64,000 bases of DNA from Lactiplantibacillus songbeiensis (GTDB lineage: Bacteria > Bacillota > Bacilli > Lactobacillales > Lactobacillaceae): positions 1-64,000 of the forward strand of contig NZ_BJDL01000009.1 of the NCBI RefSeq assembly GCF_005405125.1, read 5' to 3'. The position numbers and the translations under genes were made by a program. Under the pieces are notes generated by a model that was not told the DNA's origin, did not search any database, and was given only the letters and a program-made list of their open reading frames with translations. Positions 12,157 through 15,512 of the stretch are shown piece by piece (positions within the stretch are counted from its first letter, which is position 1; each line of letters opens with the position of its first letter).

Positions 12157-13569
12157 TTGACAACGGATAAATTTCAAAATCCCAAAAATCCTGTTACATA
12201 TTTATCCAGTTTGGAGCATAAAGTGACATACCAGGGTATTGGAGCCGCACGTACTGCTACTCAACTACAACAATCTTCAAATTTTATGAACTCTGATAAA
12301 GCAAAAAGAATGTTAGCGAATTCAGATGGGCTGTCGAAGGCAGTAAAGTGGCAGAATGATTTATCAGGATTAATGCATACATCGATGGAAGATTATATTA
12401 ATATTGAAAGTGCTTTAACAGCAAACAATAAATTTCCGACTATTCCGATGAATACTTTTAATAAAGATATGCGATACTTGGAAAAATTTTCACCCCAAAA
12501 TATAGGCCTTACACAATTTGATTCACCTTTTTCGAGTTTGGCAAAGAGTTACCAAACTCCAAGAATACCAAGCTTAGCAGATCTGACAAAAAAGGTTTCG
12601 AAGATTTCACCTAATTATGGTGGCCTTAGTGATGCTATGAATCACCTGAACTATAAGAGTGCTATTTTTACGAGAAATCCGTTAGCCTATACTACGAGTG
12701 AGAGTATAAGTCGAAGAATGGCCAAAAATGTTCTAGGTGTACAGTATAATAGACAGACTCGCGATAAATGGGGGAAAATAATTGATTCTAATTATGTGAA
12801 TCACCCTAGTTTTAATGCGAGTTTGAATGCAGTAGTTGAGAAAAATACAAATAAAGAAATAAATGACTATACACCTAATGAGCAGCTTTCTGTAGCGGCA
12901 ACTGAAGACCTTTTAAAAAATAAAATAGCTGGTGCTCCTAGTCTAAAATTATCTTCCGAAGAATTATATAAGCTACAATCGTTTTTATCGAGGACACCAG
13001 CTTTAGCTTTGAATAATGAGACGGCTAGAAAACTCTATAATTATTATTCAAGTGTTAAAGTTGAAAAACAATATATTAAAGATCGATTGTTTCATGGACG
13101 CTCTAGAAGTTTGTTTAAAAGGAAAACTCCATTTGTTCAGGATGAGTTGGAATCCACAGCCCCATGGGGATTACCATCACAGGGAAGATTTAATATAGCT
13201 AATCAAAATTTATATTATGCATCAGATGATATGGATTCATTAGCTTCCGAGTTAAAGTTGCAAGATGGTGAAGTCTTTGACGCAATAGAGTTTGAAACAA
13301 ATGAAAAGTTAGGAGTCTTAGATTTAACAAATGGAGATCAGAATATATTGAGCTTTTGTTTGCAAAAAGTATCGTCGGGGAGTAATGCTCGTGTTGAGTA
13401 TCAGATTCCTGGGTTTATTACACAGTGTTTGCAATGTAACAAAGATATTCAGGTTATAAAAATCAAAAGTGCCGTATCAGATACTGCAACAAATTATATC
13501 TTTTTGAATCCATCTTTTAGGGATTATATGAATCAGGATAATGTTAATTTTCATTTGTCTAGAAAGTAA
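12157..13569 (+). CDS. Large protein with C-terminal RES domain
   Basis: A 470-residue protein, much more AT-rich than its neighbours, started by TTG behind a strong AAGGAGG. About residues 310-460 read as a RES domain: APWGLPSQGRFN (Arg344-Phe-Asn) followed by NLYYASDDMDSLASE (Glu365). This matches the pattern of NAD-degrading RES/ParT toxins, in which an Arg and a Glu are catalytic. The N-terminal 300 residues carry no motif I recognise and are rich in Asn, Lys and Ser. RES toxins are usually about 150-230 residues and paired with an Xre antitoxin upstream; here the protein is twice that size and alone. It could be an abortive-infection effector with its sensor fused in cis, or an inactive relative. 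It lies between housekeeping genes like an inserted cargo gene. Confidence 0.65.
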   Translation: MTTDKFQNPKNPVTYLSSLEHKVTYQGIGAARTATQLQQSSNFMNSDKAKRMLANSDGLSKAVKWQNDLSGLMHTSMEDYINIESALTANNKFPTIPMNTFNKDMRYLEKFSPQNIGLTQFDSPFSSLAKSYQTPRIPSLADLTKKVSKISPNYGGLSDAMNHLNYKSAIFTRNPLAYTTSESISRRMAKNVLGVQYNRQTRDKWGKIIDSNYVNHPSFNASLNAVVEKNTNKEINDYTPNEQLSVAATEDLLKNKIAGAPSLKLSSEELYKLQSFLSRTPALALNNETARKLYNYYSSVKVEKQYIKDRLFHGRSRSLFKRKTPFVQDELESTAPWGLPSQGRFNIANQNLYYASDDMDSLASELKLQDGEVFDAIEFETNEKLGVLDLTNGDQNILSFCLQKVSSGSNARVEYQIPGFITQCLQCNKDIQVIKIKSAVSDTATNYIFLNPSFRDYMNQDNVNFHLSRK

Positions 13570-13621
13570 ATTCAATGTTTGACAATATTGATTTAACTTT
13601 TCTAACGGAGGCGCACAACGC

Positions 13622-14176: not shown

Positions 14177-14206
14177 TTGACAAGGTAATCGTTATCATGC
14201 TAAACT
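14177..14206 (+). promoter_or_regulatory. Promoter of the rsgA leader
   Basis: TTGACA (14177-14182), 18-nt spacer, TAAACT (14201-14206). Transcription would begin near 14213 and give a leader of about 215 nt before the GTPase gene. Confidence 0.7.
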
Positions 14207-14236
14207 AACAACAATTAATTTGAGGAGGGTTGTCGT

Positions 14237-14254
14237 ATGTCGGTTAGTCGTTAA
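14237..14254 (+). CDS. Leader peptide uORF (MSVSR)
   Basis: A five-codon ORF followed by TAA, preceded at 7 nt by the strongest possible ribosome binding site (GAGGAGGG, 14222-14229). A ribosome binding site of this quality on a five-codon frame, directly before a terminator-containing leader, suggests a translated regulatory leader rather than chance. It is followed by hairpins and the GTPase gene. Proposed role: ribosome stalling or slow initiation here alters folding of the downstream leader. Confidence 0.6.
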   Translation: MSVSR

Positions 14255-14276
14255 GCTTTTGAGCAACGATGTAAAA

Positions 14277-14292
14277 GTGGGAATAAGCCCAC
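14277..14292 (+). promoter_or_regulatory. Leader hairpin after uORF
   Basis: GTGGG-AATAAG-CCCAC begins 23 nt after the uORF stop and is followed by CTTATTTT. It could be a pause or weak termination hairpin. Confidence 0.45.
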
Positions 14293-14303
14293 CTTATTTT
14301 CGT

Positions 14304-14418
14304 GTACCCTAAAGACTTAATGATTTAACGCGACAAACTGACACCCGTAAACGGTCTTTTTTGAGGTGCAGTGAGTAGCTAACTTACGGCGCTTTTTTTG
14401 TCGCCTGATTTAGGGTAC
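14304..14418 (+). promoter_or_regulatory. Long-range pairing arms of the rsgA leader
   Basis: GTACCCTAAA (14304-14313) is perfectly complementary to TTTAGGGTAC (14409-14418), and GCGACAAA (14330-14337) to TTTGTCGC (14397-14404). The pairs are nested, so the whole segment can fold as one structure. That structure takes up the terminator T-run and the AGGG that could serve as ribosome binding site for ATG 14427. This is the alternative conformation expected of an attenuator. Confidence 0.55.
14368..14399 (+). terminator. Leader terminator (attenuator) before rsgA
   Basis: GC-GTGAGT and ACTTAC-GC pair around a 5-nt loop, with unpaired A and G near the base. Seven T residues follow at 14393-14399. 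It lies entirely upstream of the GTPase gene, so it would stop transcription prematurely. A weaker hairpin with six T residues precedes it near 14341-14362. Confidence 0.6.
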
Positions 14419-14426
14419 CGGTATGA

Positions 14427-15512
14427 ATGAAAGGATTATTAAAATTGACAATTGATTTAAAGAATTATGGGGTAACACCTCATTTTGAAACGGCTGCTAA
14501 AGCTCAGCCAGAATTAGTTTTAGCCCGGGTGACAGAACAACACCGAGAACAATACCGGGTAGTGACAACTCAAGGTGAACGCACAGTGCAAGTTGCAGGT
14601 AAGTTCAGCCATACCGTTGAAGATGTGACGAGCTTTCCAGCGGTTGGGGATTGGGTGTTAATCACGCCAACCAGTACGGCTGATGAACAAAGTGTTATCC
14701 AAGTCGTGTTACCACGTCAAAGTGTACTGGCACGGGCCGCTGCCAGTAATGGGCAGACTGGTCAACTAATTGCCGCTAACTTAGATACGATCTTTATTTG
14801 TATGTCGTTAAACGCGGACTTCAATGTTCGGCGAATTGAACGTTATCTAACGATGGCTTGGGACAGTGGCGCCATGCCAGTAATTGTGCTGACCAAGGCA
14901 GATTTATGTGACGACCTGTCTGATAAGTTAGCAGCTTTGGCTGAAGTTAGCATGGGTGTCGACGTAATCACTTGTTCTTCAGCGACTGAAGCGGGTTTTG
15001 ATGAACTACGAACTTATATCGGCAGGGGCAAAACAATTGCGTTTGTCGGTTCATCGGGGGTCGGCAAGTCCACCCTGATCAATCATTTGCTAGGTAAGAC
15101 CCTGCTAGCGACGAAGACGATTCGGGCTGATGATGATAAGGGTCGCCATGCCACCACGGCGCGGCAATTATTAGTTTTGCCAACTGGTGGTGTGGTGATC
15201 GACACACCGGGTATGCGGGAACTGCAGCTATATACGGGTGATTTATCGAAGACATTTGAAGACATTACCGCCTTAGCGCAGCAATGTAAGTTTCGGAATT
15301 GTTCTCATCAAAGTGAACCCGGTTGTGCCGTACAAGCGGCGATTGCGGCGGGCACGTTGGATGTGAAACGGTTCAAGAGTTATCAGAAATTACAAGCTGA
15401 AATGGCGTATAGTGGAATGAACGCGCGCCAGCGGGAAAATGAAAAGATTAACCGCTTGTTTGGCAGTAAGGCCGCGATGAAAGTGGCAACGCGAGCGTTT
15501 AAAAATAAATAA
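14427..15512 (+). CDS. rsgA: Ribosome small-subunit-dependent GTPase RsgA
   Basis: About 361 residues with the circularly permuted GTPase order: G4 (LTKAD) first, then the P-loop GSSGVGKST near residue 208 and G3 DTPGM. It ends in the zinc motif CKFRNCSHQSEPGC (C-x4-C-x-H-x5-C). An OB-like domain occupies the first 100 residues. RsgA proteins check late 30S subunit maturation. The elaborate leader suggests this copy is induced by translational stress; it may be a second paralogue, since a housekeeping copy usually sits beside stkP/rpe. The start is uncertain: ATG 14427, or TTG 14445 with AAAGGA ten bases upstream. Confidence 0.9.
   Translation: MKGLLKLTIDLKNYGVTPHFETAAKAQPELVLARVTEQHREQYRVVTTQGERTVQVAGKFSHTVEDVTSFPAVGDWVLITPTSTADEQSVIQVVLPRQSVLARAAASNGQTGQLIAANLDTIFICMSLNADFNVRRIERYLTMAWDSGAMPVIVLTKADLCDDLSDKLAALAEVSMGVDVITCSSATEAGFDELRTYIGRGKTIAFVGSSGVGKSTLINHLLGKTLLATKTIRADDDKGRHATTARQLLVLPTGGVVIDTPGMRELQLYTGDLSKTFEDITALAQQCKFRNCSHQSEPGCAVQAAIAAGTLDVKRFKSYQKLQAEMAYSGMNARQRENEKINRLFGSKAAMKVATRAFKNK

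Follow-up and report, generated by a model that had tools for sequence, protein, structure and literature searches.

Upstream of an additional paralogue of RsgA, a GTPase with a role in 30S maturation, Lactiplantibacillus songbeiensis carries a leader that we regard as a candidate ribosome-occupancy attenuator, a reading to which we assign a probability of about 0.8 on the strength of comparative sequence analysis and RNA folding. The gene, here termed rsgA2, lies in a stretch of 64,000 nucleotides (positions 1 to 64,000 of contig NZ_BJDL01000009.1), referred to below as the window. An initial annotation of this DNA had proposed a ribosome-mediated attenuator. Its general plan, the short upstream open reading frame (uORF), the terminator and the complementary arms all stood when 28 aligned leaders were compared and the arms were permuted among species, but the role as antiterminator that it gave to those arms did not. 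With such a co-changing leader conserved across several genera, the unexplained RsgA paralogue of lactobacilli becomes a candidate stress or resistance factor that can be put to the test.

The target of the leader belongs to the RsgA family, as had been stated, but is an additional copy within it. RsgA2 matches PF03193 with an E value of 8.5e-53 and 179 bits (cut-off 30) and TIGR00157 with 162 bits (cut-off 100), and it scores under the cut-offs of the RsgA models NF008931 and NF008932. The same genome encodes, on another contig, a second RsgA of 302 amino acids that is 31% identical, and because of this shorter protein the leader-bearing gene is considered the extra paralogue; its product is 98% identical to the RsgA of L. 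dongliensis. The gene probably starts at the TTG at 14445-14447 and not at the ATG at 14427 of the mechanical ORF list, since in 25 of 28 leaders the first start codon met 10-26 nt 3' of the Shine-Dalgarno sequence (SD) is TTG. Hydroxytyrosol is reported to modulate lp_1687 or rsgA2 in L. plantarum (PMC7278804), and we would guess that the responsive rsgA2 of that species is the leader-bearing copy. The gene for ThiT (TIGR02357) lies 5' of position 14177, ahead of the leader; its start codon is a GTG about 50 bases past the preceding ORF (window 13570-13621), and a 470-codon ORF without an NCBIfam match (12157-13569, + strand) lies 5' of it. No Rfam family, whether T-box, riboswitch or ribosomal leader, reached its gathering score anywhere in the 64,000-base window, the vicinity of thiT included, where a TPP riboswitch was among the families looked for.

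Each component named in the initial annotation, namely a promoter, a uORF behind a strong SD, a pause hairpin, a terminator ending in seven T and arms capable of long-range pairing, was located in the sequence (Table 1). The promoter draws its support from a TTGAC motif that 26 of 28 leaders carry within 80 nt 5' of the uORF; taken together, the sites of the promoter scan were at chance level (10 found versus 7.6 expected). As judged by sequence, an intrinsic terminator precedes the gene in nearly all leaders, with a longest T run of at least five in 27 of 28 and a hairpin ahead of the run. For bases 14213-14460, the predicted fold is better than that of dinucleotide shuffles (z -2.88), three of 200 of which equal the native sequence.

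Table 1. Features of the rsgA2 leader and gene, in window coordinates.
Feature	Position	Strand	Basis
Promoter-like site TTGACA-18-TAAACT, TG before the -10	14177-14206	+	sequence scan
SD of the uORF, GAGGAGGG	14222-14229	+	sequence; several positions also pair in helix 1:2
Arm 1 of the putative anti-antiterminator helix 1:2, partner 14308-14343	14230-14262	+	duplex energy, covarying positions
uORF MSVSR (ATG TCG GTT AGT CGT TAA), core of arm 1	14237-14254	+	28/28 leaders
Pause-type hairpin GTGGG..CCCAC between arms 1 and 2	14277-14292	+	sequence; aligned leaders also have a hairpin here
Arm 2a, GTACCCTAAA, partner 14409-14418 in the read-through RNA	14304-14313	+	duplex
Arm 2, partner the uORF (OFF) or the terminator 5' half (ON)	14308-14343	+	duplex tests, nascent folds
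Arm 2b, GCGACAAA, partner 14397-14404	14330-14337	+	duplex
T1, weak first terminator-like hairpin, six T	14343-14362	+	sequence; three-pair stem in ribosome-on fold
T2, intrinsic terminator, 12 pairs and a mismatch (14364-14394), seven T at 14393-14399	14364-14399	+	sequence, folds
Arm 4, complement of arms 2a and 2b; starts in the last three T of T2 and lies mostly 3' of the T run	14397-14418	+	duplex, permutation test
SD of rsgA2, GAAAGGA (arm 5 region)	14429-14435	+	(nearly) invariant alignment columns
rsgA2, extra RsgA paralogue, TTG start, 355 amino acids	14445-15512	+	PF03193, TIGR00157

The comparison was made on 19 leaders from the genus and nine non-redundant ones from 18 further loci; left out of these 28 were L050, with the same leader as L049, and L041, L058 and L084, with the same contigs as G008, G016 and G011, and two more leaders (L065 and L059) were used only in an out-of-sample pairing test on 19 further leaders. 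An ATG-initiated ORF of four or five codons behind an SD-like motif, from a motif list compiled after the leaders had been inspected, is present in all 28 aligned leaders as against 1.3% of shuffled ones. Its stop codon follows five codons in 25 leaders and four in the other three. The second codon specifies serine (TCG or TCA) in 26 leaders, alanine in one and leucine in one, the third residue is valine or alanine in 26, and residues 4 and 5 are variable. Such a uORF might in principle belong to an attenuator of the trp or his type, in which the ribosome stalls for want of a charged tRNA, for instance that for serine, and the near-constant second codon speaks for such a device. Yet two leaders have alanine or leucine at this codon, residues 4 and 5 vary widely, no amino-acid gene lies downstream, and pairing of the uORF with arm 2 can account for much of the conservation of its codons. 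The uORF also holds no repeated codon, on which ground trp-type attenuation was rejected for the 28 leaders, and we judge a response to amino-acid starvation highly unlikely.

Evidence that the arms belong together comes from the way they change between species. RNAalifold returned no structure for a MAFFT alignment of the leaders, since arm 2 is not aligned by sequence, and its place was taken by tests in which the duplex energy of two arms from their own leader was compared with that of arms permuted among species (20,000 permutations, kinship ignored). For the helix between arms 1 and 2 (1:2), the energy in the 28 leaders was -29.9 kcal/mol with own partners and -21.9 with permuted ones, and no permutation was as good, either in the full set or in 16 less related leaders. 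The 19 out-of-sample leaders behaved likewise (-31.8 own versus -24.9 permuted; 0/20,000), with three methyltransferase leaders among them in which 1:2 was no better than with swapped partners; the helix is weak in the Megasphaera leader (-14.0). At 29 of the 35 uORF-side positions that pair in 14 or more of the 28 leaders, pair types have altered on both sides, a count to be taken as less firm than the permutation result because the pairs were fitted per sequence. Arms 2 and 4 (2:4) likewise fit one another best within their own species (-21.8 versus -17.2; 0/20,000 in the 28 leaders and in the 16). The nested complementary arms described at the outset are supported, 2:4 outperforming all 20,000 permutations as 1:2 does. 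Pairing of arm 4 with the rsgA2 SD side (4:5) was matched by none of 20,000 permutations in the 28 leaders and by 22 in the 16, and that between arm 2 and the T2 5' half (2:3) by 37 and 974, respectively. Two control pairings, to which the model assigns no role, did not reach significance: 1:4 (6,188/20,000 in the 28 leaders, 10,358 in the 16) and 1:T2 (10,935/20,000).

How these arms might act on the terminator was approached by folding each leader with arm 1 either free or masked, as by a ribosome. The first proposal, that the nested arms prevent the terminator from forming, was abandoned: arm 4 lies 3' of the T run and is transcribed after T2, the two arms of 2:4 enclose T2 in their loop, and T2 and 2:4 coexist in the fold of the window's leader, so that 2:4 is ruled out as an antiterminator. 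With arm 4 made only after T2, antitermination more likely falls to 2:3. At equilibrium, T2 forms with a mean probability of 0.90 when arm 1 is free and 0.76 when it is masked (0.98 and 0.92 in the window), and it stays above 0.5 despite the mask in 21 of 28 leaders. Because T2 is thus mostly stable at equilibrium, mask or not, antitermination would need to be kinetic. In nascent RNA that ends before the 3' arm of T2, pairing of the T2 5' arm with arm 2 exceeds 0.3 in 26 of 28 masked leaders and in two of 28 unmasked ones, and rises from 0.00 to 0.72 in the window upon masking of arm 1. A leader's own T2 arm reaches 0.61 in this pairing and swapped T2 arms 0.45 (one-sided p 8e-4); as swapped arms still score so high, part of the predicted pairing is unspecific. 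We therefore regard kinetic antitermination through 2:3 as plausible in these models, and as less firm than the uORF, 1:2, 2:4 and the terminator.

A second level of control is suggested by the read-through RNA. The rsgA2 SD had been thought to be covered by the arms; it lies outside them, and 2:4 would instead compete with the adjoining 4:5 hairpin. Masking of arm 1 in full-length folds lifts 2:4 from 0.2 to 8.6 pairs on average, and predicted accessibility of the rsgA2 SD rises from a mean of 0.41 to 0.48 (0.45 to 0.67 in the window). This translational step is the weaker part of the model, since eight of 28 leaders have less than one pair of 2:4 in the masked full-length fold and the SD is predicted to open little. 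The predicted stability of T2 in both states in most leaders could also be read to mean that no switch exists at all, the hairpins being a terminator and a processing structure and the uORF incidental. A uORF present in 28 of 28 leaders with arms that change in concert, together with the retention of the leader with rsgA2 across genera, makes this reading scarcely credible.

The comparative data support the uORF, helix 1:2, the 2:4 arms and the terminator as parts of a ribosome-occupancy attenuator, and its working may be pictured as follows. RNA polymerase would start near 14213 and a ribosome would load on the uORF. Once the ribosome has finished and departed, the SD and uORF (arm 1) would pair with arm 2; the uORF would thereby be closed, T2 could form, and transcription would end at about 14399. 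A ribosome detained on the uORF, particularly at the start codon, would instead mask arm 1, so that arm 2 could capture the 5' half of T2 during its synthesis and polymerase would read on; pairing of arm 2 with arm 4 in the read-through RNA would then counteract the 4:5 hairpin next to the rsgA2 SD. If ribosome retention on the uORF does bring about read-through, RsgA2 would be produced upon stalling of ribosomes early in translation, for which ribosome-targeting antibiotics are the most plausible cause. We infer from this arrangement that stalling is the signal, which drugs may induce, and that RsgA2 is of benefit under such conditions. In length, the uORF (18 nt) roughly equals the footprint that a ribosome at its start codon would be expected to cover downstream. 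Tetracycline footprints are reported at +16 to +18 from start codons, and chloramphenicol is reported to stall best after Ala, Ser or Thr codons (PMC12121999). From these footprint and stalling data, a start-codon ribosome would be expected to mask the whole uORF, and phenicols appear as candidate inducers. More generally, the attenuator model predicts as inducers those drugs that hold ribosomes at or just past the start codon.

A different signal could be imagined for the same parts, with 30S loading on the uORF serving as a gauge of initiation capacity that keeps rsgA2 on, and antibiotics acting merely as an artificial trigger. The very short uORF behind its strong SD would suit such a sensor, as would the known part of RsgA in 30S maturation (domain PF03193). 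The sign, however, would be wrong for a repair loop, in that a shortage of 30S subunits should free arm 1 and turn the gene off, and similar leaders precede genes other than rsgA; we find this version highly improbable. The coupling of the gene to ribosome impairment that had originally been suggested may accordingly be narrowed: it would hold for impairments that leave a ribosome on the uORF, but a shortage of initiating 30S subunits should lead to the OFF state.

Leaders built in this way have chiefly been linked to ABC-F proteins, rRNA methylases, efflux pumps and HflXr. The resemblance first claimed, to antibiotic-inducible leaders of ribosome-protection genes, is borne out part for part by analogy with the vmlR leader of Bacillus subtilis, which has a short SD-driven uORF inside an anti-antiterminator, a pause hairpin and an intrinsic terminator, as well as an SD-sequestering hairpin that is opposed by long-range pairing in the read-through RNA (PMC9226507). 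The vmlR target, in contrast, is an ABC-F resistance factor and the uORF there has three codons, MIN (PMC9226507), whereas the uORF of the rsgA2 leaders is mostly M-S-V/A-x-x, and 1:2 spans it entirely and reaches its SD. Induction has been demonstrated for vmlR (PMC9226507) and is predicted for the rsgA2 leader. The cplR leader of Clostridioides difficile similarly has a very short uORF in a 5' hairpin and a terminator, and combines transcriptional with translational attenuation; it differs in its uORF (MRI), in a terminator that itself sequesters the SD, and in its ABC-F target (PMC10201436). In Listeria monocytogenes, hflXr (lmo0762) offers the parallel of an attenuator on one of two ribosome-associated GTPase paralogues, the other copy, lmo1296, being described as having no part in antibiotic resistance. 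There, however, the uORF has 14 amino acids with an RLR motif, and the product, an HflX variant that splits ribosomes, has been shown to act in resistance (PMC6310831). The toiL-topAI system of Escherichia coli also senses several antibiotic classes through a uORF, at whose start codon tetracycline holds ribosomes, but it works by translational control and Rho-dependent termination on a toxin-antitoxin target (PMC12121999).

A second RsgA that responds to a ribosome-targeting antibiotic is on record for Streptomyces coelicolor, where an RsgA pair is listed among the paralogues of which one is WblC- and tetracycline-dependent, SCO6149 being named first. Control of RsgA there is exerted by a transcription factor, unlike here, and the attenuation uORF belongs to wblC (PMC7157823). 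On account of that pair, the direction of the proposed rsgA2 response is credible. By analogy, then, the rsgA2 leader would match attenuators of the vmlR, cplR and hflXr type in plan, and its target would be new; among the top matches from the open-licence PubMed Central literature, no description of a leader of rsgA was found.

The distribution of the leader follows that of one form of the protein. Long RsgA is encoded in 19 of 21 genomes of the genus (the exceptions are G006 and G007), and all 19 have a uORF of four to five codons with an SD before the gene. A wider set comprised 80 loci, of which the upstream DNA of 18 was first read by eye; on these 80, a model of the 5' part of the leader (R1) gave 15 matches 5' of the gene with E 0.0013 or better, including Oscillibacter, Megasphaera and a Clostridium metagenome-assembled genome (MAG). 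In the family, R1 matched 38 of 350 genomes at E 0.01, the window's among them. Four matches (G073, G081, G113 and G128) were dropped after reading of the DNA; of the remaining 34, 31 are followed by rsgA2 and two by an RNHCP gene, and one is situated close to a contig end. When 397 family genomes were searched at the protein level, long RsgA turned up in 92, with 39 at 57% identity or more and 53 at 53% or less. Leader and uORF are present in 35 of 35 close Lactobacillaceae orthologues among the 39 whose upstream DNA was read, outside which fall G092 (at a contig end), G915, G931 and G252; the uORF of G927 reads MSVVQ. In the group at 53% or less, R1 had no match in the 350 genomes sampled except the RNHCP leaders of G100 and G130. 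Conservation in other lactobacilli, one of the checks proposed along with the original reading, thus turned out in its favour, with the uORF present in all 28 leaders and in the 35 orthologues.

In a tree built from 100 RsgA proteins, seven changes account for the leader label, as against a mean of 26.1 when it is shuffled, with none of 500 shuffles as low; the rows labelled as having no leader include L064, L068 and L090, with just 309, 113 and 3 bases of upstream DNA. Judged by this tree, the leader goes with one part of the RsgA family, with losses or transfers, and near relatives of RsgA2 that have no such leader exist (for example L044). Beyond the family, a search of the phylum gave seven matches in 398 genomes at E 0.001: the window's genome, two strong ones (G689 and G724), two before other genes (G739 and G758), and two chance matches inside longer coding frames (G461 and G528). 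Class searches around G689, G739 and G724 matched 1 of 20, 3 of 82 and 3 of 63 genomes, the centre genome included each time, and added G780 and G870 (before rsgA2) and G718 (before a methyltransferase gene); a further match, G862, was a chance hit. In a search of 398 genomes of Bacilli the window's own genome was the sole match. Counts from searches of more than 40 genomes are lower bounds, since stricter filters applied to them. A weak model match, G015 C3, was read and dropped. A plasmid origin of the leader was also considered and set aside, blastn of the Oscillibacter and window leaders against a plasmid collection having found no match at E 0.1.

The leader thus recurs before rsgA2 in other Bacillota and before genes for RNHCP-domain proteins and, less surely, for a methyltransferase, and marks the latter two out as further candidates. 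In G100 and G130 a leader with uORF MSAIA and strong 1:2 pairing precedes a stand-alone RNHCP-domain gene (PF12647, the match resting on a scan of the G130 protein); the loci are L172 (G100:C1:449489, uORF start GTG) and L174 (G130:C11:20869). A leader with uORF MSVIL stands before a class I methyltransferase gene in G739, G689 and G718 (L153, L157 and L162), and the G739 protein passes no specific NCBIfam cut-off. These leaders have the uORF and visible 1:2 pairing and would count as weaker members, because in energy their own 1:2 helices do not outdo those with swapped partners. A leader with uORF MSSIR (28.5 bits; 1:2 at -34.7 own versus -21.5 swapped) precedes a GNAT gene in G758, and some 0.6 kb past that gene, with a small ORF in between, lies a gene for an RsgA-RNHCP fusion protein of 427 amino acids (L201:452-1735, - strand; PF03193 65.9 bits, C-terminal PF12647 131.4 bits). 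As RsgA and RNHCP meet both by leader and by fusion, a joint function may be taken as a lead, not as proof. The idea that RNHCP regularly accompanies RsgA2 in the relatives of the window found no support, PF12647 occurring in one of 100 (G053, a weak match) and being absent from the window's genome. It is enticing to speculate that the leader family marks a small ribosome-stress regulon in Bacillota, made up of the RsgA paralogue, RNHCP-domain proteins and the methyltransferase, in which RsgA2 would act as a new protection or rescue factor on drug-stalled small subunits, a 30S-side analogue of HflXr with RNHCP as its partner; we hold this broader proposal to be tentative, and on balance doubtful.

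Two loci of the wider set merit separate mention. The RsgA of a Clostridium thermobutyricum MAG (L046) groups with that of Oscillibacter and not with the copy of strain DSM 4928 (L080), a placement for which horizontal transfer, an additional copy and a misbinned contig are candidate explanations. In L059 (2897-3025, + strand), the leader is a compact variant with uORF MSEIG in which no terminator is seen and the complement of the uORF abuts the rsgA SD, an arrangement that resembles a purely translational attenuator.
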